From Microbacterium tenebrionis (lineage in GTDB: Bacteria; Actinomycetota; Actinomycetes; Actinomycetales; Microbacteriaceae), in contig NZ_CAHJXQ010000001.1 in NCBI RefSeq assembly GCF_903645325.1, positions 558,001-622,000 of the forward strand: DNA of 64,000 nucleotides. Reading direction: 5' to 3'. Position numbers and translations under genes: made by a program. The notes below the pieces were generated by a model. It saw nothing but the letters and a program-made list of their open reading frames with translations. It searched no databases and had not been told where the DNA came from. Positions 49,575 through 64,000 of the stretch are shown here, piece by piece. Within the stretch, counting starts at the first letter, position 1. Each line of letters opens with the position of its first letter.

Positions 49575-51920
49575 TCACTCCACGCGGATGTCGGCGACCT
49601 CCTTGTCGGGCCGCAGGCCGCGCCAGCGCGCGTGACGCAGCGAGCCGTCACCGGTCCACCCGGCGAACTCCACTTCGCCGACGAGTTCGGGCCGCACCCA
49701 CAGCGCGTCGCTCGCGTCGAGGTCGGGGACGCCCTCGAGATCGGTCTCCTCCGCGCGCAGCGGAGTGAGTCGCTCGAGCAGATCGCGCAGCATCCGATCG
49801 TCGAACCCGCTGCCGACGCGCCCGACGTAGCGCAGTGTTCCGTCGGCATCCGGAACGCCCAGCAGGAGTGACCCGAACGTCGCGGCGCGGTTGCCTTTTC
49901 CGGGGCGGATGCCGGCGATCACCACCTCCTGCGTTCTCGTGTGCTTGATCTTCAGCCAGTCGGCGGAACGGGTGCCCGGACGGTAGCGCGAGCCCGCGGC
50001 CTTCACCACGACCCCTTCCAGGTCGAGGTCCCGGCTGGTGCGCAGCGCGGCACCCAGATCGTCGAAGACCGGGGGCACGATGACAGGCCGGTCTGCGCTC
50101 TCGCCGAGCGTCTCCAGCAGGGCACGGCGGTCCCGCAGCGGGGTGCCGCTGAGATCGTGGCCGTCCAGTCGGACCAGGTCGAACAGGTGGTACGCGATCG
50201 GGGTGCGGACGACCTCGCGTTCGATCTCCCGCCCCTTCGTGAGGTGCATGCGGCGCTGCAGCAGCCCGAAGCTCGGTCGGCCGGACGCATCCAGCGCCAC
50301 GATCTCGCCGTCGACGACGGCATCCGCGCACGCGAAGTGCGGGGCACCATCGGCGGTGAGTTCGGGGTAGCGCTCGGTGATGTCGGTGCCGCTGCGCGCG
50401 TGCAGGCGGAACCTGCCGTCCTGCCAGGTGCCGATGGCGCGGATGCCGTCCCACTTGATCTCGCTCCACGTGTCCTTCAGTGCAGCTGCGAGACCGGGCG
50501 TGCCCGTCTCGGCGAGCATCGGGCGGACGACACCCGCCGGGGAAGCCGGTTTCTGGTCCCTCATGCGATGCAGCAGCCAGGAGGACTTCTCGCCGGACCC
50601 GTCCGTGCGGATGAGGGCGAGCCGGGCGCGGCCCAGGGGGCCTTCGCCGCTGAACGTTCCGATGACCTCGTCGTCGCGCCACTTCTCGAGCTCGACGGTG
50701 CCCGAGTCCCAGATCGTCATGGTGCCCGCCCCGTACTCGCCGCGGGGGATCTCGCCGTGGAAGGTCAGATATTCGAGCGGATGCGGCTCGGTCATCACGG
50801 CGAGGCGGTTGCGCGCAGGGGCCTCCGGGACCCCCTTGGGCACAGCCCAGCTCACGAGCACGCCGTCGTGCTCGATGCGCAGATCGAAGTGCTTCGCGCG
50901 CGCATGGTGCTCCTGGATCACGAACCGGGGGAGCGGCCCCGCCGCGGTGACCGCTGTCCGCTCGGGAACGGGCTCGGGCGTGCGCGCGGCATCGCGCTTG
51001 GCGCGGTACGGGGCGAGCGCGGCATCCGCAGACGACGGTCCGAAGCCGGCGAACGGGTCGATGCCCTCCTCGGCCCGCTCGGCGACCTCGTCGAGGTCGA
51101 GATGGCGCAGCCCCGGGTCGTCGAGCTCGGCCCATGTGCGCGGCGCGGCGACGGTCGGCCGCGCTCTGCCGCGCAGTGAGTACGGCGAGATGGTCGTCTT
51201 GGAGCCGTTGTTCTGACTCCAGTCGATGAACACCCTGCCACCGCGGACGGCCTTCGTCATCGTGCTCGTCGCGAGGTCGGGGTGATCCGCCTCGATCGAA
51301 CGGGCCAGCTCGTGCGCGATCGCTGACGCCTGGTCGCTCGTCTGACCACCATTCAGATGCGCGTACAGATGGATGCCCTTGCTGCCGCTCGTGACCGGCA
51401 CCGGGTCGAGGCCGATGTCGGCGAGGATCTCGCGCGCGAGCCGGGCGATGTGGGCGCACTGGGCGAGATCGGCCCCCGGCCCGGGGTCGAGATCGAGGAC
51501 CAGCCGGTCGGGGTTCCGGCGCTCGCCGCCTGACCCGAACCGCCATTGCGGAACGTGCAGCTCGACGCTGGCGATCTGCGCCATCCATACGAGGGTCGCC
51601 AGATCAGCGGCGATCGGGTACTCCTTCGCACCGCCGGAGTGCTCGATCGGCAGGCGCTGCACCCATTCGGGCGCCCCGCGCTCGATCTGCTTCGCGAAGA
51701 ACGCCTCGCCCGGAGCATCCGCCGTGCCCACGCCCTCGACCCAGCGCTTGCGCGTGACGGGCCGGCGGGCCAGCAGCGGCAGCATCCGCGGGGCGACGCG
51801 CGTGTAGTAGGCGATCATCTCGCCCTTGGTCGTTCCCGTCTCGGGGTAAAGCACCTTGTCGAGGTTCGTCAGGCGCAGACGCCTGCCGTCGACCTCGACG
51901 ACCTGCGCAGCGCTCGGCAT
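49575..51920 (-). CDS. ligD: DNA ligase D, polymerase-phosphoesterase-ligase
   Basis: Multifunctional end-joining enzyme, 781 residues. The polymerase/primase domain (about 10-290) carries LTNLDKVLYPETG and the metal-binding LVLDLDPGPG. A 3'-phosphoesterase domain (about 325-460) has FVIQEHHARAKHFDLRIEHD. The ligase domain has its adenylated lysine at about residue 488 in EIKWDGIRA, followed by DGEIVALD, EGVVVKA and SADWLKIKH. The POL-PE-LIG order is the mycobacterial form. ATG 51920 is chosen because TAGTCT lies 7 nt upstream and the polymerase domain begins right after; the frame is open further upstream but the sequence is not protein-like. Divergent from ku. Confidence 0.94.
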   Translation of the reverse strand: MPSAAQVVEVDGRRLRLTNLDKVLYPETGTTKGEMIAYYTRVAPRMLPLLARRPVTRKRWVEGVGTADAPGEAFFAKQIERGAPEWVQRLPIEHSGGAKEYPIAADLATLVWMAQIASVELHVPQWRFGSGGERRNPDRLVLDLDPGPGADLAQCAHIARLAREILADIGLDPVPVTSGSKGIHLYAHLNGGQTSDQASAIAHELARSIEADHPDLATSTMTKAVRGGRVFIDWSQNNGSKTTISPYSLRGRARPTVAAPRTWAELDDPGLRHLDLDEVAERAEEGIDPFAGFGPSSADAALAPYRAKRDAARTPEPVPERTAVTAAGPLPRFVIQEHHARAKHFDLRIEHDGVLVSWAVPKGVPEAPARNRLAVMTEPHPLEYLTFHGEIPRGEYGAGTMTIWDSGTVELEKWRDDEVIGTFSGEGPLGRARLALIRTDGSGEKSSWLLHRMRDQKPASPAGVVRPMLAETGTPGLAAALKDTWSEIKWDGIRAIGTWQDGRFRLHARSGTDITERYPELTADGAPHFACADAVVDGEIVALDASGRPSFGLLQRRMHLTKGREIEREVVRTPIAYHLFDLVRLDGHDLSGTPLRDRRALLETLGESADRPVIVPPVFDDLGAALRTSRDLDLEGVVVKAAGSRYRPGTRSADWLKIKHTRTQEVVIAGIRPGKGNRAATFGSLLLGVPDADGTLRYVGRVGSGFDDRMLRDLLERLTPLRAEETDLEGVPDLDASDALWVRPELVGEVEFAGWTGDGSLRHARWRGLRPDKEVADIRVE

Positions 51921-51927
51921 GTTCGAA

Positions 51928-51933
51928 AGACTA
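51928..51933 (-). promoter_or_regulatory. -10 box of leaderless ligD
   Basis: TAGTCT on the minus strand, 7 nt before ATG 51920, in the 54-bp ligD-ku spacer. Confidence 0.5.
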
Positions 51934-51974
51934 GCCTCTGGCACCCGGGGCCCTCGGCAGTGTCTACTGGTCTC

Positions 51975-52784
51975 ATGAGGTCGATCTGGAAGGGCGCCCT
52001 GACGTTCGGGCTGGTGAACGTGCCGGTGAAGGTGTACTCCGCCACCGAGGACCACGACGTCTCGCTGCACCAGGTGCATGACGAGGACGGCGGGCGGATC
52101 CGGTACAAGCGCACCTGCGAGGTGTGCGGCGAGGTCGTGCCGTACCAGAACATCGACCGCGCCTACGAGGACGACGGGCAGCTGGTCGTGCTCACCAAGG
52201 AGGATCTCGACGCGCTCCCCGCCGAGCGCAGCCGCGAGATCGACGTGGTCGAGTTCGTGCCGAGCGATCAGGTCGATCTGCTCACTCTCGACAAGGCCTA
52301 CTACCTCGAACCCGACTCGAAGTCGCCCAAGGCGTACGTGCTGCTGCGCAAGACGCTCGAGCAGACCGATCGTACGGCGATCGTGCGCTTCACGCTTCGG
52401 CAGAAGACGCGGCTCGCGGCCTTGCGCGTACGCGGGGACGTGCTCGTGCTGCAGACGCTGCTGTGGGCCGACGAGGTGCGCGAGGCGTCGTTCGAGTCGC
52501 TCGATGAGGACGTGAAGATCTCGAAGAAGGAGCTCGAGCTCTCGGCGAACCTCGTCGACAGCTACTCGGGCGACTTCGACCCGGAGGCCTTCGTAGACGA
52601 GTACCAGAAAGAGCTGCGCACCCTCATCGACGCCAAGATCGAGGCCGGAGACACGTTCGACGTCGCCGAGACGTTCGCGGGCGGCGAGGATGCCGCGGGA
52701 TCCGGCGGCGAGGTCATCGACCTCATGGAGGCTCTCAAGGCCAGCGTGGAGAAGTCGCGGGCCAAGAAGAAGGACGCGAGCTAG
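51975..52784 (+). CDS. ku: Ku DNA end-binding protein
   Basis: Homodimeric ring that binds double-strand ends and recruits LigD. The 269-residue protein has the bacterial Ku core: MRSIWKGALTFGLVNVPVKV, then RYKRTCEVCGEVVPYQNI with a CxxC, and DLLTLDKAYYLEPD. The C-terminus is a short Lys-rich tail (KKKD) that may bind DNA. It is divergent from ligD with 54 bp between, and its stop overlaps the convergent DedA gene stop by 4 nt. Confidence 0.95.
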   Translation: MRSIWKGALTFGLVNVPVKVYSATEDHDVSLHQVHDEDGGRIRYKRTCEVCGEVVPYQNIDRAYEDDGQLVVLTKEDLDALPAERSREIDVVEFVPSDQVDLLTLDKAYYLEPDSKSPKAYVLLRKTLEQTDRTAIVRFTLRQKTRLAALRVRGDVLVLQTLLWADEVREASFESLDEDVKISKKELELSANLVDSYSGDFDPEAFVDEYQKELRTLIDAKIEAGDTFDVAETFAGGEDAAGSGGEVIDLMEALKASVEKSRAKKKDAS

Positions 52785-53831: not shown

Positions 53832-53837
53832 TATGGT
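53832..53837 (+). promoter_or_regulatory. -10 box of the IclR-led operon
   Basis: TATGGT, 7 nt before ATG 53845. Confidence 0.5.
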
Positions 53838-53844
53838 TGCCGAC

Positions 53845-54663
53845 ATGGAACAGCGTGCCACGTCGTATCACTCGCAGGGCCTCGTGCGTGCGATCCGCCT
53901 TCTCGGCGCCCTCGAAGAAGCCGATCGTCCCCTCAGCCTTGCGTCGCTGTCGACGAGCCTCGACCTGCCCAAGTCGACCTTGGTCCGCCTGCTCGCGATC
54001 CTGGAGGAGCACGACTACGTGTTCCGCGAGGGGACCCCGCCCACCTTCGGCATCGGCCACGCCGTCTTCGAGCTCTCCGAGTCCTATCGTCGTCAGGTCG
54101 ACGCCGACGCCCTCGCCTCGCCGTACCTGCGACGCGTCGCGGACGACACGGGCCTGACGGCCAACGTGGGGGTCCTTCAGGGCAGGTCCGTCCTCCACGT
54201 CTGCGTCGAGGAGCCCAGCCGCCCGCTGCGCTTCCGCTCCGCGAGCGGTTCGCTGGACCACGCATACTGCACGGGCCTCGGGAAGATGCTGCTCTCCGCC
54301 CTCGACCGCGACGCCGCGACCGCCCATCTGCCGGAGGAGCCGTTCACGGGGTACACGGACCACACGCTGACCAGCCGCGAGGCGCTCGATGCCGAGCTGG
54401 AGGCAGTGCGCGGGCGCGGCTTCAGCATCGATGACGAGGAACGAGATCCCGGTGTCACCTGCATCGCGGTGCCGATCGTCGCCGGATCGGTGAACGCGGC
54501 CGTCAGCGTTGCGGGCCCCTCGGCCGAGCTCGCCCCTGCCCGCCGCGCCGAACTGCTCGACGTCCTCCGGCGCAGCGCCGCCGAGCTCGCCGCGGACACA
54601 CGCTTCGTGTCCGCCCTGCGGCTGTCCCGTTCCGCGTCGACAAGAGAGGATGCGTCCCGATGA
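53845..54663 (+). CDS. IclR-family transcriptional regulator
   Basis: Local regulator of the following catabolic operon, 272 residues. The N-terminal winged helix-turn-helix (about 10-65) includes RAIRLLGALEE and LASLSTSLDLPKSTLVRLLAILEE. The C-terminal effector domain (about 80-255) has YCTGLGKMLLSAL and GVTCIAVPIV. ATG 53845 is preferred because of the -10 spacing; ATG 53833 is also in frame. It overlaps the first enzyme gene by 4 nt, so it is probably autoregulated with the operon. The effector should be a pathway intermediate. Confidence 0.9.
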   Translation: MEQRATSYHSQGLVRAIRLLGALEEADRPLSLASLSTSLDLPKSTLVRLLAILEEHDYVFREGTPPTFGIGHAVFELSESYRRQVDADALASPYLRRVADDTGLTANVGVLQGRSVLHVCVEEPSRPLRFRSASGSLDHAYCTGLGKMLLSALDRDAATAHLPEEPFTGYTDHTLTSREALDAELEAVRGRGFSIDDEERDPGVTCIAVPIVAGSVNAAVSVAGPSAELAPARRAELLDVLRRSAAELAADTRFVSALRLSRSASTREDASR

Positions 54664-55514
54664 TCGTCGATGTCCATACCCACAACCTGCAGCCCGAGCA
54701 CTGGGGCGAAGAGCATAAGAACAACTGGGAGCCGGCGTACGGTGAACCGTACCCTCGGATCTCGCCGCAGCAGTACGACGACGCCATGATCGAGGCTGGC
54801 GTCGACGTCGCCGTCGTGTTCGGGCTGGCGGCCAGCCGGGCCGGCGTGCACACCCCGAATGCGTTCGTGGCCGACTACTGCGCGCAGGTCACGACACCCA
54901 CGGTCGCCTTCACCGCGCTCGATCCGCTCGACGTCGACTGGCGCGACCAGGTCGAGGAGGCGGTGTCCCTCGGGTTCCGCGGCGTGAAGCTCTACCCGGT
55001 GCTGAGCCTCTTCGACCCGCTGTCGGAGGACTTCGACGACTTCTACCGGCTGTGCGTCTCCCACGGGCTCGTCGTGCTCTGGCACATGGGCGCCACACCG
55101 AGCCCTCAGGGCCGGCTGTCCGTGAGCCAGCCGCTCGTCGTTGAGGAGGTCGCGCGCCGGCATCCGGAGCTGACGCAGATCATGGCGCACATGGGCCATC
55201 CCTGGCAGCTCGAGACGATGGTCGTCCTGCGCAAGCACGCGCGGGTGTTCTCGGACGTCTCCGCATCGTGGACCCGTCCGATGGCGGGGTTCCAAGCCCT
55301 CGTCGCGGCGCAGGAGTGGTCGGTGGCCGGCAAGCTCCTCTTCGGCTCCGACTTCCCGCTCTGGCGCCCGAAGGACGCGATCGCCGGCCTGCGCAGGCTC
55401 GCGGAGCTCCGCGCCGGGAACCTCCCGTTCGTGCGGGAGGAGACGGTGGAGGGCATCATCAACCGCGACGCGCTGGAACTGCTCGGGATCCCGGACCCGC
55501 GCGGCCGCAGCTGA
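54660..55514 (+). CDS. Amidohydrolase (amidohydrolase-2 family)
   Basis: TIM-barrel metal hydrolase or decarboxylase, 284 residues. The metal site is visible: His6 and His8 in VDVHTHN, His in LWHMGATP, His in IMAHMGHPW and Asp in LFGSDFPLWRP. The GVKLYP strand is conserved. Members of this family hydrolyse lactones and amides or decarboxylate acids; the substrate here is unknown. Coupled to the IclR gene by an ATGA overlap. A 137-nt gap with two hairpins follows. Confidence 0.88.
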   Translation: MIVDVHTHNLQPEHWGEEHKNNWEPAYGEPYPRISPQQYDDAMIEAGVDVAVVFGLAASRAGVHTPNAFVADYCAQVTTPTVAFTALDPLDVDWRDQVEEAVSLGFRGVKLYPVLSLFDPLSEDFDDFYRLCVSHGLVVLWHMGATPSPQGRLSVSQPLVVEEVARRHPELTQIMAHMGHPWQLETMVVLRKHARVFSDVSASWTRPMAGFQALVAAQEWSVAGKLLFGSDFPLWRPKDAIAGLRRLAELRAGNLPFVREETVEGIINRDALELLGIPDPRGRS

Positions 55515-55560: not shown

Positions 55561-55611
55561 CGGTCGGGGAGAGGACATCGACCCGACCGGTGCTCGGAGA
55601 CCCCGGGCACC
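55561..55611 (+). promoter_or_regulatory. Two adjacent hairpins upstream of the aminotransferase
   Basis: Hairpin 1: arms 55561-55568 and 55582-55589 (8 bp). Hairpin 2: arms 55589-55597 and 55603-55611 (9 bp with one G-U pair, 5-nt loop). Both lie between the amidohydrolase stop and the aminotransferase start; they could attenuate or stabilise the mRNA. Confidence 0.45.
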
Positions 55612-55651
55612 CCAACGATCTCGTATGCGCGAGAAGAAGGAGAGCAGGACA

Positions 55652-56959
55652 GTGGCACAGACAGCCTCGGAGATCACCGCCGAAGCGAGGGCCGTCATCC
55701 CCGGCGGCGTGAACTCCGCGACGCGCAACATCGGACAGCCGACGGGCTTCCGAACCGCATCGGGATCCCGCATCGTCGACTTCGACGGCAAGGAGTACAT
55801 CGACTATCACGCCGCATTCGGCGCCATCCTCCTCGGCCATCGGGACGAGCGTGTCTCTTCGGCGGTCGCGGCGGCGCTGGAGGACATCGACCTGGTCGGC
55901 CTCGGCGTCACCGAGCTGGAGCTCGAGGTGGCCCGGCTCACCGCGCGACTGATCCCGTCGGTGGAGATGTCGATCAGCACGATGAGCGGGACGGAGGCCA
56001 CGATGCAGGCCGTGCGCCTCGCCCGTGCGGTCACGGGGCGGAAGTTCCTCCTGAAGTTCCAGGGCTGCTTCCACGGATGGCACGACGCCGTCGCCCGCAA
56101 CGTCATCTCCAGCCCGGAGCGCGCCTACGCCGTCGACCCCCTCTCGTCCGGCATCCTCGACGACGCGCTCCAGTCGACGCTGGTGGCCGAGTTCAACGAT
56201 CTAGCCAGCGTCGAGGAGCTTTTCGCCGCCCACCCCGACCAGATCGCCGCCGTCATCCTCGAGCCGGTCCCGCATAACGTCGGAGCGCTGCTCCCCGACC
56301 AGGCGTTCCTGCAGGGACTGCGCGAGCTCACGCGCAAGGAGGGGAGCCTACTGATCTTCGACGAGGTCATCACCGGCTTCCGCCACGCCCCGGGCGGCTA
56401 CCAGGAGCTGTGCGGGATCACCCCCGATCTCACGAGCTACGGCAAGGCGATGGGCAACGGCCTAGCGGTCGCCGGCCTCGGCGGGAGCGCAGAGCTCATG
56501 TCCCGCTTCTCCTCCGCGGGGGGCGACGTGGTGCTCGCGGGGACGTTCAACGGGAACCCGGTTTCGATGGCAGCGGCGATCGCGACCATGACCGTGGCGA
56601 GCGACCCCGCGGTCGGACTGCACGCCCACACGTCCCGCCTGGGCGATCGGATGCGCGACGGCATGCGCGGGATCGTCAATCGACTCGGCATCCCGGCCGT
56701 GGTCACGGGCATCGGCTCCGTCTTCGTCACGTACTTCCTGGAGGGCGAGGTCAAGGGCTATCGCGACCTGCTACGCAACGACGACACCGCGTACGCGACG
56801 TTCCATCGGCGGATGACGGACGCGGGGCACATGATGTACCCGATGTCGCTGAAGCGGAACCACATCTCGCTAGCGCACACGGCCGAGGACATCGACAGCA
56901 CGCTGGAGGCGGCGGAGAGCGTGCTCGCGGGGATGCAGAAGGACGGTCTGCTCTCGTGA
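55652..56959 (+). CDS. Class III PLP aminotransferase (GSA-aminomutase-like)
   Basis: PLP enzyme of fold type I, 435 residues, close in pattern to glutamate-1-semialdehyde aminomutase. It has VIPGGVNSATRNIGQPTGF at the start, SGTEATMQAVRLAR, FDEVITGFRHAPGG and the PLP lysine Lys265 in SYGKAMGNG. The context argues against haem synthesis and for transamination or epimerisation of an amino compound. GTG 55652 is preferred, with GGAG about nine bases upstream; ATG 55625 is also in frame. It contains five CTA leucine codons, which I did not notice in the core operons. Confidence 0.88.
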   Translation: MAQTASEITAEARAVIPGGVNSATRNIGQPTGFRTASGSRIVDFDGKEYIDYHAAFGAILLGHRDERVSSAVAAALEDIDLVGLGVTELELEVARLTARLIPSVEMSISTMSGTEATMQAVRLARAVTGRKFLLKFQGCFHGWHDAVARNVISSPERAYAVDPLSSGILDDALQSTLVAEFNDLASVEELFAAHPDQIAAVILEPVPHNVGALLPDQAFLQGLRELTRKEGSLLIFDEVITGFRHAPGGYQELCGITPDLTSYGKAMGNGLAVAGLGGSAELMSRFSSAGGDVVLAGTFNGNPVSMAAAIATMTVASDPAVGLHAHTSRLGDRMRDGMRGIVNRLGIPAVVTGIGSVFVTYFLEGEVKGYRDLLRNDDTAYATFHRRMTDAGHMMYPMSLKRNHISLAHTAEDIDSTLEAAESVLAGMQKDGLLS

Positions 56960-57894
56960 CGGGGCGGCGGGTGCTCATCGTCGGCGCCGGTGCGATGGGA
57001 CGGATCCACGCCGCAGCCGTGCGCGCGGCGGGCGACGTCATCAACGCCGTCGTCGACGCCGACACCCGCCGCGCCCGGACGCTCGATCCCGGGGCGGAGC
57101 TCTTTCTCTCCGTGGCGGACGCCCTGTCCGCGGGGGGAGGGCTGGACGCCGCGGTGGTCGCGACCCCCTCCAGCGCCCATCTCGAGCAGGTGCGTGCGCT
57201 CGCGGAGGCGGGTGTGCCGGTGCTCGTCGAGAAGCCGCACCGCGTCCCCGGTGAGGACCCGTCGTCGCTCCTCGAGGCGGAGCGCAGGGGCGCACGCGTC
57301 TTCGTCGGCATGTCGACGCGGCACTGGCCTGGCATCGAGGCGGCTGCGGATGCCGTCCGGGCGGGAGAGCTCGGCGAGATCCTCGCCTACACCGACCGGA
57401 TGGCCTTCCGGCTGGCCGAGGAGAGTTTGCCGGCCTGGTACTTCGACGCGGCGGTCAGCGGCGGCGGCATCCTCGTGACGAACGGCGTGCATGCCCTGGA
57501 CCGCGTTCGCAGCATCCTGGGCGCTCCGACCATCGATGCGGCGGAGATGCGCCGCATCGTCGACAGGGGCGACGTCGAGGAGATGGCGGTCCTGCGCGGG
57601 ACGGTCGATCGGAGCGCCGTGCTGATCGAGTTGCTGTGGACCGGTTACCCGCCGCTGGGCGAGGGGCTCGTCATCAGCGGGACGAGGGGAGCGGCCTCGG
57701 TGCGGATGGACGGGAGCTGGTGCATCACGACCCAGGGGGGGGAGCGCAACGGACCGGCGATCGACCTGGACGTCACCCCGTTCCGGAGACAGTGGACGGC
57801 GTTCACGAACGCCGCCCCGGGCTTTTCGGTCCGCGACCTCGAGCCCACTCTCACCCTTATCGAGTCCATCTACAGGGAGCACAGCGATGACTGA
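56956..57894 (+). CDS. Gfo/Idh/MocA-family oxidoreductase
   Basis: NAD(P)-dependent dehydrogenase, 312 residues. The Rossmann motif VGAGAMGRIHAAAVR is at 9-23 and the EKP motif (VLVEKPHRVPGE) near 93. The C-terminal dimerisation and substrate domain includes GGGILVTNGVHALD, where the His is likely catalytic. The start is GTG 56956, overlapping the aminotransferase stop by 4 nt. Acting next to the aminotransferase, it could oxidise or reduce a hydroxy, keto or imino intermediate. Confidence 0.88.
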   Translation: MTGRRVLIVGAGAMGRIHAAAVRAAGDVINAVVDADTRRARTLDPGAELFLSVADALSAGGGLDAAVVATPSSAHLEQVRALAEAGVPVLVEKPHRVPGEDPSSLLEAERRGARVFVGMSTRHWPGIEAAADAVRAGELGEILAYTDRMAFRLAEESLPAWYFDAAVSGGGILVTNGVHALDRVRSILGAPTIDAAEMRRIVDRGDVEEMAVLRGTVDRSAVLIELLWTGYPPLGEGLVISGTRGAASVRMDGSWCITTQGGERNGPAIDLDVTPFRRQWTAFTNAAPGFSVRDLEPTLTLIESIYREHSDD

Positions 57895-59107
57895 CCTCAC
57901 CCTGCTTCTCTACCCGTGGGACGTGCAGGCCGCGGGGCCAGAGCGGATCGTCGCCGACGCCGCGGCGCTCGGTGTGACGCGCCTGCAGATCGCGACGGCG
58001 TATCACTCCGCAGAGATCATCGCTCCGCGCCGACGGACGGGTGTCTCGACGGTGGCTGAGGCGAACACCGTCCATCTCCCGTTGCCGCAGGGGACCTTCG
58101 GCGACCTCGCCATCCCCGCGTCACGAATCGCGACGACGGACCCCGACCTCTACCCGCGCCTGCGCACGTCCGCTGACGCCTCCGGCATCACGCTCGACGG
58201 CTGGACGGTCGCGCTCCACAACACCTCCCTCGCCACCGCGCGTCCCGATGCCGCCATCGAGAACTGCTTTGGCGACCGGTTCGTCCACGGCCTCTGCCCC
58301 GCCTCGCCCGCCGCGCGGCGTTACGCGGTTGAGCTCGTGGCAGGGGCCGCCGGCACGGGTCTCTTCGACCGGGTGATGGTGGAGAGCCTGTCCTACCTCC
58401 TGGTGGGACACGGACACCCCCACGAGCTGTGGGGCGCGAGGCTCGACGCCACGACGAGGTTTCTCCTCTCCCTCTGCTTCTGCGGGCACTGCCGGTCCGC
58501 CGCGGCGACGGCAGACATCGATGCCGACGAGGTGCGCGCCGCCGTCTGCGACCTGCTCGACCGGCTCTGGAACGCGGAGCACCCCCAGGGCCGTGACCCC
58601 GACACCGGCAACGAGATCACGTCGCTCCTTCTGGTGTGGCCGGACCTGGCGGCATACACGAGGATGCGAATGGACGTCGTGACGCGACTCGTCGTGGACG
58701 TCGCCGCCGCCGCCCGTGCGCGCGGGGCGAGGCTCGACCTCAGCGCTGCCGTCTGGGGCCGCCCCGCGCCGACCAACTGGACGGAGGGCGTCGACATCGC
58801 CCAGTCGCTGAGGACGGCCGACGGCTTCGTGCTGGAGAGTTACTTCCCCACGGCCGGGGAGGTGGCGGCGGAGATCGATCACGTCGACACGATCCGTCGG
58901 ATCACCCCCGGCGCGACGGCCGATCTCGCCGTGGCGATCACGCTGTGGCCGAGCCTCTCTCCCACACGCGACTCCTTCCGCGCGAAGGTCGATGCTGTCC
59001 GCGGTGCCGGCGTCGGGACGCTCACGCTCTACAACTACGGGACGGCTCCGGCTCCCAGCCTCGACTGGGTCAGGGACGCCGCCGAGATGATGGGAACGCT
59101 GCGATGA
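57887..59107 (+). CDS. Uncharacterised protein, possible TIM-barrel enzyme
   Basis: I do not recognise the family. The 406-residue protein has alternating strands and helices that suggest a TIM barrel: TLLLYPWDVQAAGPERI, LGVTRLQIATAYHS, then DGWTVALHNTS, and VGTLTLYNYGTAPA near the end. A CFCGHC motif near residue 196 and the His pairs HGHPHELW could bind metal. The start overlaps the dehydrogenase gene by 8 nt and the end overlaps the next gene by 4 nt, so it is an integral member of the pathway. It could act on a sugar- or amide-containing substrate; that is inference. Confidence 0.75.
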   Translation: MTDLTLLLYPWDVQAAGPERIVADAAALGVTRLQIATAYHSAEIIAPRRRTGVSTVAEANTVHLPLPQGTFGDLAIPASRIATTDPDLYPRLRTSADASGITLDGWTVALHNTSLATARPDAAIENCFGDRFVHGLCPASPAARRYAVELVAGAAGTGLFDRVMVESLSYLLVGHGHPHELWGARLDATTRFLLSLCFCGHCRSAAATADIDADEVRAAVCDLLDRLWNAEHPQGRDPDTGNEITSLLLVWPDLAAYTRMRMDVVTRLVVDVAAAARARGARLDLSAAVWGRPAPTNWTEGVDIAQSLRTADGFVLESYFPTAGEVAAEIDHVDTIRRITPGATADLAVAITLWPSLSPTRDSFRAKVDAVRGAGVGTLTLYNYGTAPAPSLDWVRDAAEMMGTLR

Positions 59108-60195
59108 CGACCCTCACCGACACGCCCGTGCTTGTCCTCGACGAACGGCGCATGCAGCGGAACATCGATGAGATGGCGGCGGCCGTCGCCGCCGCGGGCG
59201 TGAGCCTCCGTCCGCACTTCAAGACGTCCAAGATGATCGAGGTCGCCCGGCGGCAGCTCGCCGCCGGCGCGGTCGGGATGACCTGCGCGACCCTGGCCGA
59301 GGCGGGTGCGCTCCTCGACGCCGGCATCACCGACCTCTTCTGGGCGAATGCGCCGGCGACCGCGCACAAGGCGGCGGCTGTCGTCGCGGCGAACCGCCGT
59401 GGCCGCGTGATCGTCGGCGTCGATTCGCTGGCGCTCGGCGAGAACCTCAGCGCGGCGGCGCGCGCGGAAGGCGCGGTCGTCGAGGTCCGGCTCGAGGTCG
59501 ACACGGGTCTGCATCGCACCGGCGTCGCGCCCGAGGCCGCGGTCGAGCTCGCGCTGAGCCTCGCCGCGTTTCCCGGGATCGCCCTCGAAGGCGTCTACAT
59601 GCACGAGGGGCAACTCGCCTCGATCCGCGGAGACCGTGCCGAGGTCAAGGCGGCAGGACGATCCGCATCGCATATGCTCGTCGAGACCGCCGATGCGATC
59701 CGCGCCGCCGGTCTCCCCCTGTCGTCCGTGTCGGTCGGGTCGACGCCCGGGTGGGACTCCGCTCCATTCGTGCCGGGGGTGACGGAGGCCCGCGCCGGCA
59801 CCTACGTGTTCTTCGACGCGAACCAGTGGCGGCTGGGCTCTGCGCCGCTCGAGCGCACGGCGCTCCAACTGCACAGTACGGTTGTGAGCGGCCCCAGGGA
59901 CGGCGAGGTTGTGATCGACGCCGGCATCAAGGCACTGAGCTCCGATGGCTCGAACCGCGACGCCACGTTCGGCATCGTCGTCGACGAGTCGCGGACGCCG
60001 CAGCGGATCGTCTTCGACCGCGCCTACGAGGAGCACGGCATCCTGCGCGGACCCGACGCGACGACGCACGCGGTGGGGGACCGCGTGCGGATCGTCCCGA
60101 ACCATGCCTGCGGGATCGTCAACATGTGGAGCCGGGTCGTCGTCGTCGACGGGGACCGCGTCGTCGAAGAATGGCATCCCGTCGGCCGCTATTGA
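59104..60195 (+). CDS. D-threonine aldolase / D-serine dehydratase-like PLP enzyme
   Basis: Alanine-racemase-fold PLP protein with a C-terminal metal site, 363 residues. RPHFKTSKM at about 36-44 holds the PLP lysine (Lys40 by analogy). LEVDTGLHRTGV and SVGSTPGW are conserved, and PNHACG with His334 and Cys336 is the zinc/manganese site of D-threonine aldolases and D-serine dehydratases. Substrates are D-beta-hydroxy amino acids. This is the clearest hint that the cluster handles D-amino acids. Coupled to the previous gene by ATGA. Confidence 0.88.
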   Translation: MTTLTDTPVLVLDERRMQRNIDEMAAAVAAAGVSLRPHFKTSKMIEVARRQLAAGAVGMTCATLAEAGALLDAGITDLFWANAPATAHKAAAVVAANRRGRVIVGVDSLALGENLSAAARAEGAVVEVRLEVDTGLHRTGVAPEAAVELALSLAAFPGIALEGVYMHEGQLASIRGDRAEVKAAGRSASHMLVETADAIRAAGLPLSSVSVGSTPGWDSAPFVPGVTEARAGTYVFFDANQWRLGSAPLERTALQLHSTVVSGPRDGEVVIDAGIKALSSDGSNRDATFGIVVDESRTPQRIVFDRAYEEHGILRGPDATTHAVGDRVRIVPNHACGIVNMWSRVVVVDGDRVVEEWHPVGRY

Positions 60196-60248: not shown

Positions 60249-61757
60249 TTGAACACCAGGACCCCCTTCCGTGCATCGGCGGTGAGCGCCGTCGTGCTCA
60301 GCGCCGTCGTGCTCGCCGGATGCTCCGGAGCCAGCGATTCCGCCCCGTCCGACGCGGGCACAGCCCCGGAGACGGTCGTCGCGCTGGCCGGCGACATCGA
60401 CAACTTCGACCCGCACACGAATCAGCTCAACATCTACGAGTACGCGATCAGGGAGCTGGTCTTCAGTTCCCTCGTCGACTACGACGTAGATCTCAACCTG
60501 CAGCCCGACCTAGCCGAGTATGAGGTCAACGAGGACGCGACGCAGTTCACGTTCTCCCTCGACGCCGACGCCGTCTTCCAGGACGGCACCGACGTCGACG
60601 CCGCAGCGGTCGTCTCCTCACTGGAGCGGGCGGCCGACGCCTCGAACTCGATCTGGTCGGGCCGACTGGCCGACGTCAAGAGCTACGAGACTCCCGATGA
60701 CGACACCGTCGTGATCACACTGAACAGCCCGAATGCCGCGTTCCTGGCGGGCCTCGCCTCGATCGCGATCATCGCCCCGGACGCGACCGCCGACGTGGCC
60801 AAGAAGCCGGTCGGCTCCGGCCCGTACTCGTTCGTGAGCTGGACACCCAACAGCGAGATCGTGCTGGAGCGGTTCGACGACTACTTCGGCACCCAGGGTG
60901 CCAGTGAGAGGATCGTCTACAGGCCGGTCTCCGATCAGCAGGTCGCGCTGAACAACCTGTACAGCGGCGACATCGACATCATCAGCTCGATCACGTCGGC
61001 CACGAAGGGGCAGTTCGACGCCACCCGGGCTCAGCTCGTCGAGCCGAGCGCGAGCAACTCCATGTCGCTCATCGAGTTCAACTCGTCCGGTGCGCTGGCG
61101 GACGTGCGCGTGCGGCAGGCCCTCGCCTATGCGCTCGACAAGGACGCGATCCGCGAGATCGCGTACGGGGGTGCGGGCGCGAGCACGTGGAGCCCGCTGC
61201 CGGAGTCGAGCTGGGCGTACGCGGAGCAGACCGGTTATCCGTACGACCTCGACAAGGCCGAGGCGCTGCTCGTGGAGGCGGGGGCCGAGGGACTCAGTTT
61301 CACGTTGGAGATCCCGTCCGGGTTCCCCGACGCCGAGCAGATCGCACGCGTCTGGCAGTCGTCGTTGGCCGAGATCGGCGTCACACTGACGCCGAACGTG
61401 ACCGAGCTCTCCGTCTGGCTGGACGCATACGTGTCCCGGTCCTACGACGCGACCTGGAACACGTTCAATGTAGGCGCCGACCCGAACTCGTACTTCGACA
61501 TCATCATGCAGCCGCACCTCGCCGATGACTATCCGAACGCCCAGGTGCAGCAGCTCGTGTCCGACGCCGTCGCCGTCTCCGACGAGTCGGAGCGGGCGGA
61601 GATCTACGCGCAGCTGCAGAAGATCCTCGTCGACGAGCTGCCGGTCATGACCGTGCAGTCGACGCCGATCTACTCGGCGGCCGCGAACGGCGTGTCGGGA
61701 TATGCCGTGAACCCCCTCGGCTGGTCGCTGCTGGCCGGGGCGTCGGTCTCCGAGTGA
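60249..61757 (+). CDS. Dipeptide-type ABC substrate-binding lipoprotein
   Basis: SBP family 5 protein (DppA/OppA-like), 502 residues. The start is TTG 60249 with GAGAGGAA about seven bases upstream. The signal peptide ends in lipobox LAGC with Cys25. Family regions follow: IREITYG-like segment IREIAYGGAGASTWSPLP and the C-terminal EIYAQLQKILVDELPVM. It lies 53 nt after the PLP enzyme gene and is followed by two permease genes. No ATPase genes are visible before the window ends. It should bind a peptide-like or acyl-amino-acid ligand. Confidence 0.92.
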   Translation: MNTRTPFRASAVSAVVLSAVVLAGCSGASDSAPSDAGTAPETVVALAGDIDNFDPHTNQLNIYEYAIRELVFSSLVDYDVDLNLQPDLAEYEVNEDATQFTFSLDADAVFQDGTDVDAAAVVSSLERAADASNSIWSGRLADVKSYETPDDDTVVITLNSPNAAFLAGLASIAIIAPDATADVAKKPVGSGPYSFVSWTPNSEIVLERFDDYFGTQGASERIVYRPVSDQQVALNNLYSGDIDIISSITSATKGQFDATRAQLVEPSASNSMSLIEFNSSGALADVRVRQALAYALDKDAIREIAYGGAGASTWSPLPESSWAYAEQTGYPYDLDKAEALLVEAGAEGLSFTLEIPSGFPDAEQIARVWQSSLAEIGVTLTPNVTELSVWLDAYVSRSYDATWNTFNVGADPNSYFDIIMQPHLADDYPNAQVQQLVSDAVAVSDESERAEIYAQLQKILVDELPVMTVQSTPIYSAAANGVSGYAVNPLGWSLLAGASVSE

Positions 61758-61776: not shown

Positions 61777-62736
61777 ATGAAACTGGCGAGACGCGCGGCG
61801 GTCGAGGCCGCCAAGCTCCTGGTCGTGCTCTGGCTCGTATCGGTGCTGGTGTTCCTCGCCCTCCGTCTCACACCCGGGGACCCCGCGGTCCTGCTGCTCG
61901 GCCCGCAGGCAGGGCGCCCGGACGCGGCGGCGACATTGGAGCGGCTTCGGCAGGAGATGGGGCTGGACCAGCCCTGGCCCGTGCAGTACGCCATCTGGCT
62001 TGGCAACATCCTGGGGGGAGACTTCGGGGAGTCGGCGCGTAGCGGCGAGCCAGTCGTCGCTCTCATCCTGCAGGCGTTGCCGTCGACGCTCTGGCTGATC
62101 GGGCTCACCGTCCTCGTGTCGGTCCCGATCGCGGTGCTCCTCGGGATGAGGGCCGCCTACCGGCCGACGGGGTGGCTCGCCCGGGTCGTCCGCGGCGGCA
62201 CGACGGTCGCGATCGCCGTGCCGGGTGTCTGGCTCGGCCTGCTCCTCATCATCCTGTTCTCCGTGACTCTCCGCGCGCTCCCCTCCGGCGGCTTCGTTGA
62301 TCCGTTCGACGACCTCGGCGGCTTCCTGTCGCATATGGTGCTGCCCGTGCTCACCCTCGCGGTCTTCCTCGCCGCCGTGCTCACGCGCTTCGTGTACGCG
62401 GAGGCCGTCGACGTGTTCCGCCAGGACTACATGCGCACGGCCCTGGCGATGGGGCTGTCCGAACGGAGACGCGTCTTCGTGTACGCGACGCGCAACGCCG
62501 TGCTTCCGATGATCACCATCGTCGGCGTGCAGATCGGTGCGCTGATCGGCGGGGGAGTCCTCGTCGAGGCGGTCTTCGGCCTCGGAGGACTCGGGCAGCT
62601 GCTGCTCAGCAGCGTCTTGAACAGGGACTATCTCGTCGTACAGGGCGCGGTGCTCCTGACGACGGTCTTCGTCCTACTGATCGGCTACCTCGCCGACATC
62701 GCGTACCGTCTCGTCGACCCGAGGATCAGCAAATGA
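61777..62736 (+). CDS. Dipeptide-type ABC permease 1
   Basis: DppB-like membrane subunit, 319 residues with six hydrophobic segments. The N-terminal SVLVFLALRLTPGDPAVLL segment and the coupling loop RTALAMGLSERRRVFVYATR, which contacts the ATPase, are present. The start has GGGAGGG upstream in the 19-nt gap after the lipoprotein gene. It overlaps permease 2 by 4 nt. Confidence 0.92.
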   Translation: MKLARRAAVEAAKLLVVLWLVSVLVFLALRLTPGDPAVLLLGPQAGRPDAAATLERLRQEMGLDQPWPVQYAIWLGNILGGDFGESARSGEPVVALILQALPSTLWLIGLTVLVSVPIAVLLGMRAAYRPTGWLARVVRGGTTVAIAVPGVWLGLLLIILFSVTLRALPSGGFVDPFDDLGGFLSHMVLPVLTLAVFLAAVLTRFVYAEAVDVFRQDYMRTALAMGLSERRRVFVYATRNAVLPMITIVGVQIGALIGGGVLVEAVFGLGGLGQLLLSSVLNRDYLVVQGAVLLTTVFVLLIGYLADIAYRLVDPRISK

Positions 62737-63611
62737 GCACATCGACCCTTCGCGTCCCCGTCCGCGAGCGCGGCGGCATCTGGGCGCCCGTGCGTCGTCT
62801 TGGCCCCGCCCGCCTCGTCATGATCGTCTTCGGGGTGGTCGTGCTCCTCATGGCGCTGTGGCCGGGCCTCTTCTCGCCGCACTCGCCGACGGCCATCGAT
62901 GCCACGGCGATCCTGCAGCCGCCGAGCCTGGCGCATCCGATGGGCACCGACGAGGCGGGTGCGGACATCTGGGCGCGGATCGTGCACGCCGTCCGGCTCG
63001 AGATCCTCATCGCGGCGGGCAGCGTGCTGATCGCCCTCCTCATCGGCGTGCCCACCGGTCTCATCGCCGGCAGCTCACGCCGCTGGCCGGACTGGGCCCT
63101 CTCCAGCACAGCCTCGGCGACGCTGGCCTTCCCCCTCATCCTCTTCGCCATCCTCATGGTCGCGAGCTTCGGGGCGAGCGGGACAAGCCTGACGGCGATC
63201 ATCGGCTTCCTGTTCTTCCCCCGTGTCTTCCTTCTCGTCCGGGCTCAGACCAGGTCGCTGCGGGAGCGCGATTTCATCACCGCCGTCCGCGTGGTGGGGG
63301 CGGGCCCCGTCCGCACGCTCGTGCGTCACATCCTGCCGAACGCCGCCGGCCCTCTCGCCACCCTCGTGCCGCAGCTCATGTCGGAGGCCATCCTCATCGA
63401 GGCCGGTCTCAGCTACCTCGGCCTGGGCGTACCGCTTCCTCAAGCGACCTGGGGGACGATCCTCGAGTCGTCGAAGGACTACTACATGACGGCGCCGTAC
63501 TATGCGGTCGCCGCCGGCGTCGCGATCACTCTCGTCGCCGCGGCGCTCATGTACGCGGGCGAGCTCATTGCGGAGTCCACCAATCCGCTGCGCCGGAGGA
63601 GGACCGCATGA
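62733..63611 (+). CDS. Dipeptide-type ABC permease 2
   Basis: DppC-like membrane subunit, 292 residues. It has the HPMGTDEAGADIWARIVHAV motif typical of this subunit, the coupling loop around ERDFITAVRVVGAGPVRTL, and the ILIEAGLSYLGLGVPLP segment. Five or six hydrophobic segments are present. ATGA overlaps link it to both neighbours. Confidence 0.92.
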   Translation: MSTSTLRVPVRERGGIWAPVRRLGPARLVMIVFGVVVLLMALWPGLFSPHSPTAIDATAILQPPSLAHPMGTDEAGADIWARIVHAVRLEILIAAGSVLIALLIGVPTGLIAGSSRRWPDWALSSTASATLAFPLILFAILMVASFGASGTSLTAIIGFLFFPRVFLLVRAQTRSLRERDFITAVRVVGAGPVRTLVRHILPNAAGPLATLVPQLMSEAILIEAGLSYLGLGVPLPQATWGTILESSKDYYMTAPYYAVAAGVAITLVAAALMYAGELIAESTNPLRRRRTA

Positions 63612-64000
63612 CCGGGTTCACGATCCGCGGAGCGCGTGTGGTCGACGGCACCGGTGCACCCGCCGTCACCGCCGACGTCGTCGTCCGTGACGGGCGCATC
63701 GCGACGATCGGCGAGGGTGAGTCCTCCGGCCGTCGCGTCGACGCCGACGGCCTCGTCCTGGCGCCGGGGTTCATCGACATGCACGCGCACTCCGACCTCT
63801 CCCGGTTCGCCTATCCCGGCGGGGAGACGAGGGCGCTCCAGGGGATCACCACGGAGGTGGTCGGCAACTGCGGCATGAGCCCGGCGCCGGCGTCCGACCC
63901 GGGCTTCCGCGACACGATCGGCACGATCGACGTCGCGCCCCTCGGGGACTTCGCCTGGAGCACCCCGGTCGAGTACCTCGACGCGGTGGCCGAGGTGGAG
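63608..64000 (+). CDS. N-acyl-D-amino-acid deacylase-like amidohydrolase, partial
   Basis: The first 131 residues of a D-aminoacylase-family protein; it runs off the window end. Visible features are the N-terminal beta strands FTIRGARVVDGTGAPAV, metal ligands His59 and His61 in FIDMHAHSD, and the GITTEVVGNCGMSP segment with Cys88 in the position of the metal-bridging cysteine of D-aminoacylases. The family hydrolyses N-acyl-D-amino acids or D-configured amide bonds. Coupled to permease 2 by ATGA, which supports import and deacylation of the same compound. Confidence 0.88.
   Translation, partial: MTGFTIRGARVVDGTGAPAVTADVVVRDGRIATIGEGESSGRRVDADGLVLAPGFIDMHAHSDLSRFAYPGGETRALQGITTEVVGNCGMSPAPASDPGFRDTIGTIDVAPLGDFAWSTPVEYLDAVAEVE

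Follow-up and report, generated by a model that had tools for sequence, protein, structure and literature searches.

Locus and gene structure

The window analysed here is a stretch of 64,000 nucleotides from Microbacterium tenebrionis (contig NZ_CAHJXQ010000001.1, positions 558,001 to 622,000). It carries an operon that encodes, in order, an IclR-family regulator, an Amidohydro_2 protein, a class III aminotransferase, a Gfo/Idh oxidoreductase, the protein here termed P, a pyridoxal phosphate (PLP) enzyme, an SBP_bac_5 solute-binding protein and two permeases. P is a genuine protein, so far uncharacterised, whose predicted fold is of the glycosidase type. Its gene and the residues discussed below are as follows, in window positions.

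57887..59107, + strand: P, a 406-residue glycoside-hydrolase-like protein, ATG start, TGA stop (from open reading frame, fold and homologues)
57920..57922, + strand: D12 codon, after strand β1, candidate general base
58004..58006, + strand: H40 codon, after strand β2
58217..58219, + strand: H111 codon, after strand β3
58295..58297, + strand: C137 codon, first Cys of a proposed structural zinc site, aligned with a Cys of the GH42 protein L069
58382..58384, + strand: E166 codon, end of strand β4 in the model, candidate general acid/base
58409..58432, + strand: HGHPHELW, residues 175–182, loop after β4
58475..58492, + strand: CFCGHC, residues 197–202, a CxCxxC motif with the other three Cys of the putative structural zinc site, paired with CYCDRC in GH42 L069
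59030..59032, + strand: Y382 codon, end of strand β8, possible sugar-binding aromatic by analogy with PMC5765458 (excerpt)

The start codon of P lies inside the upstream Gfo/Idh gene, whose stop codon TGA at 57892–57894 gives an 8-base overlap, and its stop codon overlaps the start of the PLP-enzyme gene by 4 bases, as ATGA at 59104–59107. These overlaps suggest that P may be translationally coupled to both neighbours, in line with the preliminary description of this DNA, which had presented an uncharacterised 406-residue protein, coupled on both sides, in a catabolic operon. No signal peptide was seen in P by eye.

A pattern-based scan with a reach limited to close relatives returned 10 loci, in Microbacterium, Leucobacter, two Salinibacterium, Garicola, a Corynebacterium-like bacterium, two Acidimicrobiaceae, a Paracoccaceae and a Bauldia. 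The operon recurs in Actinomycetota and Alphaproteobacteria. Identity to P is 43–66% across the nine close relatives aligned with it in a 10-row alignment (A1), throughout which HGHPHELW is invariant. All eight other operon genes of the window were found at loci L001–L004, L006 and L007, with six of the eight at L005, five at L008, four at L009, whose contig ends inside P, and one at L010. The operon of Garicola koreensis (L004 2395–14809) is split into two divergent halves, with the PLP enzyme, aminotransferase, Amidohydro_2 and IclR genes on one strand and the Gfo, P and importer genes on the other.

In the codon comparison of P with each of the nine relatives in A1, the third codon position is the most variable. 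Synonymous changes make up 85–142 of the 252–351 differing codons against the eight full-length relatives, and 67 of 149 against the partial L009. Since third codon positions vary most, the gene has been kept as a protein; this codon pattern, together with neighbours that recur in two phyla, confirms that the open reading frame of P is a real gene.

Predicted fold of P

The AlphaFold model of P, built from 10 alignment rows, adopts a (β/α)8 barrel, with a predicted local distance difference test (pLDDT) score of 78.9 and a predicted template modelling (pTM) score of 0.82, and places E166 at the end of strand β4. The second model was built for the protein of L008 from 9 rows and has a pLDDT of 80.5 and a pTM of 0.86.

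Structural similarity search using VIA-align revealed that the model of P most resembles Cwp19, with a Z-score of 26.7 over 299 residues (3.3 Å), followed by the C-terminal domain of PgaB (Z 25.4, 321 residues, 3.4 Å), GH42 (Z 24.2, 304 residues, 2.9 Å), GH35 (Z 22.1, 295 residues, 3.5 Å) and GH156 (Z 21.5, 284 residues, 3.1 Å). Among the matches listed, 49 of 50 are glycosidase-type barrels (Z 20.4–26.7). The second model agrees, with PgaB at Z 26.6, Cwp19 at Z 26.5 and glycosidase-type barrels making up most of the matches listed. Foldseek likewise matched the model of P to Cwp19 (E 1.1e-11), and engineered D-tagatose 3-epimerases were among its low-ranking matches. By prediction, the fold class of P is thus a glycoside-hydrolase-type barrel.

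These comparisons agree with the barrel-like pattern that the preliminary description had noticed and specify its type. Its statement that P fits no nameable family stands for the curated libraries: the single P protein gave no NCBIfam or PADLOC match and chance-level Pfam matches only (E of at least 0.1). A search of PDB sequences with the same protein returned nothing or chance-level matches. The profile and structure comparison that the description had put forward as a check found glycosidase-type barrels, but linked P with confidence to none of the families whose reaction is established.

A wide family with conserved Cys, Glu and aromatic residues

Among genomes of the window's family, 24 of 398 carry wide relatives, mostly at 22–35% identity, as do 17 of 396 from its phylum, the source genome being included in both counts. 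On plasmids they were found in 150 of 72,556 records, 112 of them Rhizobium and the named rest mostly haloarchaea. Most of the plasmid matches listed bear the annotation hypothetical, whereas two haloarchaeal relatives are labelled "putative glycoside hydrolase" or "family 10 glycosylhydrolase". As far as the literature searches and family libraries covered go, the family is undescribed: the literature search found no paper joining NamZ, haloarchaea and peptidoglycan, and none combining three of six uronate, aminouronate and RidA topics.

Conservation was read from a 49-row alignment that omits the window gene itself (L011, L042, L044), duplicates by score (L012, L013, L062) and partial, broken or weak rows (L009, L010, L031, L059, L060). 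The relatives L033 and L034 are weak matches of the genome search, absent from the list of the profile search; a second profile (A2) comprises 38 of 40 listed rows, L028 and L047 being left out. W106, C137, E166, C197, C199, C202 and Y382 are invariant in all 49 rows, and H40 (48/49, with one gap), Y39 (48/49) and D12 (47/49) are nearly so. The distance between C137 and E166 is 27–29 residues and the CxCxxC spacing is constant. Strand β7 carries no conserved acid in the family alignment.

The histidines are less uniform, with H111 kept in 46 of 49 rows (Phe in three), H179 in 46, H175 in 44 and H177 in 19. H111, H175 and H179 are lost together in L015, L021 and L024, which form one clade that retains E166 and the four Cys and whose loci retain the D-aminoacylase and PLP-enzyme genes. 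In addition, H175 is replaced by Trp and Phe in the two haloarchaeal rows L035 and L040.

Sequence relationship to GH42

HHalign comparison of the 49-row profile with 17 actinobacterial GH42 proteins gave a probability of 87.7 and an E-value of 3.5e-6 over 273 columns. Fifteen control sets of neighbouring gene families all gave probabilities of at most 2.5 and E-values of at least 0.019; they include Amidohydro_2, Amidohydro_3, DHDPS, MR/MLE and the PLP enzyme, which we take to be barrel folds too. In this alignment C137 matches the Cys of CPSN, and CFCGHC matches CYCDRC, of GH42 L069, the Cys-zinc cluster being present in 1 of the 17 GH42 proteins.

In a GH42 enzyme described in PMC8573354 (excerpt), the zinc cluster consists of Cys113, Cys153, Cys155 and Cys158, and the catalytic residues are Glu148 (in NEY) and Glu305. 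The cluster is described there as stabilising, earlier work on a relative, as cited in that excerpt, places the zinc outside the catalytic cycle, and the authors' own data show activity raised by zinc. By analogy, C137, C197, C199 and C202 of P probably hold a structural zinc. Since CFCGHC and C137 share the arrangement of that cluster, the Cys motif does not speak for metal catalysis. Judged solely by its place at the end of β4, E166 would be the equivalent of the GH42 acid/base.

The idea of a metal-dependent enzyme, which the preliminary description had drawn from the barrel-like pattern, CFCGHC and HGHPHELW and tied to retention of the Cys/His residues in homologues, is weakened accordingly for the Cys motif and possible for the His segment. 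Both motifs are present in P as described; the Cys are never lost (49/49), and a catalytic metal at the His segment is possible, though not general, given the 3 of 49 rows that lack H111, H175 and H179.

The A2 profile, searched against the PDB, placed Cwp19 first (E 0.002) and GH156 second (E 0.017). The 10-row profile matched RecA fusion chains at E 0.002; as no individual stretch passed, this match was put down to chance. Genome searches with the GHL10 and GHL6 models brought 1 of 20 and 1 of 100 genomes, respectively, over the cut-off.

The operon and the neighbourhoods of the wide family

Besides P, the operon comprises the following genes.

53836..54663, + strand: IclR-family regulator (PF01614, PF09339), start uncertain, open reading frame listed from 53563
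54660..55514, + strand: Amidohydro_2 protein (PF04909), possible lactonase
55604..56959, + strand: class III aminotransferase, glutamate-1-semialdehyde-aminomutase-like (PF00202), start uncertain
56956..57894, + strand: Gfo/Idh/MocA oxidoreductase (PF01408), possible sugar dehydrogenase
59104..60195, + strand: PLP enzyme (PF01168 and PF14031), related to D-threo-3-hydroxyaspartate dehydratase
60249..61757, + strand: SBP_bac_5 solute-binding protein (PF00496)
61777..62736, + strand: ATP-binding cassette (ABC) permease (PF00528)
62733..63611, + strand: ABC permease (PF00528)
63608..64000, + strand: Amidohydro_3 D-aminoacylase-like gene, 5' part, found by tblastn with the L003 homologue and cut by the window end

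Among solved structures, the PLP enzyme is nearest to D-threo-3-hydroxyaspartate dehydratase (3wqc; E 1.4e-54, 188.9 bits), the aminotransferase is nearest to glutamate-1-semialdehyde aminomutase and falls under the cut-offs of curated models, Gfo/Idh is weakly similar to inositol dehydrogenase and others, and the sole solved relative found for Amidohydro_2 is an uncharacterised protein. The aminotransferase, which has no clear place in the pathway, is kept in 7 of the 9 other aligned close-family loci (L001–L004, L006, L007, L009) and also at L008. A beta-hydroxyaspartate cycle was considered and rejected, as the regulator scored 162.8 bits against the BhcR model (cut-off 350) and the PLP enzyme 147.3 against BhcC (cut-off 690).

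Beyond the window end, the source genome and loci L001, L002, L003 and L007 carry genes for Amidohydro_3, two ABC ATPases, RidA and FAA hydrolase. The nearest solved relatives of the L003 Amidohydro_3 protein are N-acyl-D-glutamate deacylase (236 bits), D-aminoacylase (207) and PpOngB (173). In this assembly the D-aminoacylase-like gene of the source genome (L043 1608–3151) is read in two frames, and is either broken or affected by a sequencing error, whereas its homologues in L001, L002, L003 and L007 have a single frame. If the frame break is real, the pathway may be blocked in the source strain.

A tRNA scan of the whole window found none. In the last part of the window, Rfam gave no match, the terminator scan no terminator-like site, and the promoter scan one promoter-like site against 0.7 by chance. 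Upstream of the operon, LigD-like and Ku-like genes, an end-joining pair named by reading their translations, lie at 49575–52784.

The neighbours of 20 wide-family loci were compared with 40 control stretches, which were taken at round positions of our choosing in 14 of the 20 genomes; the DHDPS, MR/MLE, short-chain dehydrogenase/reductase (SDR), uronate dehydrogenase-like (UDH-like) and EDD seeds were drawn from the test loci, so that each of these counts holds one self-match. IclR (7 versus 0), RidA (6 versus 0), D-aminoacylase (4 versus 0), UDH-like SDR (9 versus 0), MR/MLE (5 versus 0), DHDPS-type (7 versus 1) and EDD (3 versus 0) are in excess beside family members. BLASTP on called genes (E at most 1e-5, run on the loci with no control) added L116, L118, L119 and L120 to the loci with the PLP enzyme and also raised the number with Gfo.

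The midpoint-rooted tree divides into parts of 20 and 29 rows (99 in the Shimodaira-Hasegawa-like approximate likelihood ratio test), with P in the larger one. The UDH-like gene lies at 9 of 10 surveyed loci of the 20-row part and 0 of 10 of the 29-row part, and RidA at 0 of 10 and 6 of 10, respectively. The relatives thus occur in operons of oxidative sugar use, one clade beside uronate/aldarate-type enzymes, and the clade of P beside D-aminoacylase, D-amino-acid lyase and RidA, the enzyme set of oxidative N-acetylglucosaminate catabolism. The label "uronate dehydrogenase-like" is our own reading; the dehydratase and dehydrogenase hits in the 20-row clade (clade I) lie below cut-off, the best model of the dehydrogenase being Azf. 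The DHDPS-type proteins of L117 and L113 reach 394 and 441 bits with one 5-dehydro-4-deoxyglucarate dehydratase model (cut-off 278) and stay under the cut-off of the stricter KdgD model.

Haloarchaeal loci are varied. Four have MR/MLE, SDR and sugar ABC genes, with RidA in three and kdgK1 plus eda in one; one has D-aminoacylase, FAA hydrolase and PIG-L deacetylase; one has Gfo, aminotransferase, dipeptide epimerase and sugar ABC genes; and one has only RidA, creatininase, two Gfo and a sulfatase. Three have AnmK with DUF1343, two of them with nagZ. By annotation, the plasmid relatives at L130 8040–14367 and L134 4321–11966 adjoin DUF1343, nagZ and anhydro-N-acetylmuramic acid kinase genes, which we take to be a murein-sugar recycling set, here in haloarchaea that presumably lack murein. 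Four Rhizobium/Aminobacter loci carry amidohydrolase, "alanine racemase", aspartoacylase-type and sugar ABC genes, with RidA in three.

Proposed function and alternatives

Because of its fold and gene neighbours, we propose, with a probability of roughly 0.5, that P represents an undescribed family of glycoside-hydrolase-like enzymes and works in the cytosol, where it would free an acidic or N-acylated amino sugar for oxidative use. A glycoside would be imported and then cleaved by P inside the cell. Gfo/Idh may oxidise the released sugar at C1, Amidohydro_2 may open the lactone, D-aminoacylase would remove the N-acyl group, the PLP lyase together with RidA would eliminate ammonia to give a 2-keto-3-deoxy acid, and FAA hydrolase might cleave a later keto acid. 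In the active site, E166 at the end of β4 is the likely general acid/base, and an inverting mechanism aided by D12 and/or H111 seems likelier than a retaining one because no β7 carboxylate is conserved. N-acetyl-hexosaminuronic acids are our preferred guess for the substrate, given the uronate-type enzymes found beside members of the sister clade.

Several points weigh against this proposal. The β7 nucleophile is absent, HHalign leaves E166 in a gap around the His-segment insert and places the GH42 acid/base Glu on R185, and the profile matches in the PDB are weak, an unrelated binding protein coming next at E 0.036. The two AlphaFold models have alignment rows in common and are only partly independent, and the His-bearing loop (residues 171–183, or 170–182 in the second model) lies below pLDDT 50. 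In the neighbour survey no clear excess appeared for Amidohydro_2 (0 versus 0), aminotransferase, Gfo or PLP enzyme (1 versus 0 each), FAA hydrolase (2 versus 1) or SDR (6 versus 5), and 2 of the 20 loci (L115, L127) have none of the seed families. The scheme leaves the aminotransferase unplaced, and the activity, ligand and metal of P are all predictions.

P could instead use its glycosidase fold later in the pathway, as a lactonase or other hydrolase acting on an oxidised sugar. The lack of a β7 nucleophile would fit, and clade-I operons show a dehydrogenase, a dehydratase and a DHDPS-type protein with no lactonase identified among the genes scanned, which were part of the total. However, the window operon already holds Amidohydro_2 as a possible lactone opener, the fold and the conserved β4 Glu suit glycosidases, and sugar-type ABC importers adjoin many family members; we consider this role unlikely. 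Still less probable is a catalytic metal bound by H111, H175, H179 and E166. Strands β3 and β4 are adjacent, the three histidines are kept in 44 to 46 of the 49 rows, and their joint loss in L015, L021 and L024 is what one joint site would predict. That loss, however, is a single event in one clade, the operons of the His-less members (L116, L118, L120) keep D-aminoacylase, and RidA in 2 of 3, so that function seems kept, H175 reads Trp and Phe in haloarchaea, and the low pLDDT makes the geometry of the loop unreliable. A non-catalytic sugar-binding or assembly protein, to which the missing retaining pair and fold matches such as the maize BZR1-type beta-amylase 7upv (non-catalytic by title) and the imaginal disc growth factor 1jnd (presumably a non-catalytic barrel) would point, is highly improbable given E166 in 49 of 49 rows over bacteria and archaea and the near invariance of W106, Y382, H40 and Y39.

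Extending the glycosidase proposal to the whole family, we put forward, tentatively and as a doubtful generalisation, a new glycosidase family across bacteria and haloarchaea with an inverting site (E166, D12, H111) that dispenses with the β7 nucleophile and stands at the gate of intracellular oxidative pathways. One clade would free uronic acids; in the other, the products would be N-acylated amino sugars or aminouronic acids, with deacylation and deamination by D-amino-acid-type enzymes to follow. If true, the family adds a carbohydrate-active group claimed by no Pfam or NCBIfam model and indicates that acidic or amino sugars are oxidised along pathways inside the cell, and the window operon would encode one such pathway, hitherto undescribed, for an acidic amino sugar.

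Comparison with known systems

Cwp19, of the GHL10 family (PF02638; PDB 5oq2, 5oq3), is the best or near-best fold match of P in both models (Z 26.7 and 26.5). The two proteins keep the β4 acid, lack the β7 Glu and have an aromatic residue at the end of β8. In the excerpt of PMC5765458, the β4 acid (Asp196 in Cwp19) is common to PgaB and GH42, Gly stands in place of the β7 Glu in Cwp19, and an aromatic residue ends β8. Nevertheless, they share only 12–14% identity, the Cys cluster and His loop are P's own, and Cwp19 is a cell-surface peptidoglycan enzyme, unlike the presumably cytosolic P. Membership in GHL10 was rejected, as the PF02638 model gave no match in P and matched 3 of 38 relatives weakly at E of at most 0.01 (best 0.0015). 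The C-terminal domain of PgaB (PDB 4p7l, 4p7o) is similarly close in fold (Z 25.4 and 26.6) at 11–12% identity and, unlike P, keeps the β7 Glu (Glu607; excerpt of PMC5765458).

GH42 (PF02449) resembles P in the barrel (Z 22–24) and in the Cys-zinc arrangement, as in L069 and Gal42. Compared to GH42, P has no β7 Glu, no Asn ahead of the β4 Glu (V precedes E166) and no further domains. Membership in GH42 was rejected: the barrel is shared, P gives no PF02449 match up to E 1, and the catalytic Glu pair is missing. As no β7 acid is conserved, the GH42 retaining mechanism is not kept in P.

The inverting exosialidase GH156 (PDB 6s00, 6rzd) matches P with Z 21.5 and 21.2. Its base is Asp14 and its acid His134 (excerpt of PMC6811678); by strand position, not by superposition, D12 after β1 and H111 after β3 follow the same strands as these residues. 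P differs in having no extra C-terminal domain, and no sialic acid genes were seen in its operon.

At the level of the operon, the closest counterpart is the Ong pathway (excerpt of PMC9537276), in which OngB deacetylates N-acetylglucosaminate, OngB and OngC together yield 2-keto-3-deoxygluconate (KDG), and the RidA protein OngD is required for growth. No sugar kinase that could serve as KDG kinase was found among the operon genes identified (through L003 20272). Compared to the Ong cluster as set out in that excerpt, the operon of P has IclR instead of RpiR, an ABC importer instead of SSS and P instead of GH20, and reaches beyond the Ong set with Gfo/Idh, Amidohydro_2, aminotransferase and FAA hydrolase. 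Nevertheless, both unite a D-aminoacylase-type deacetylase, a PLP D-amino-acid lyase and RidA in one cluster.

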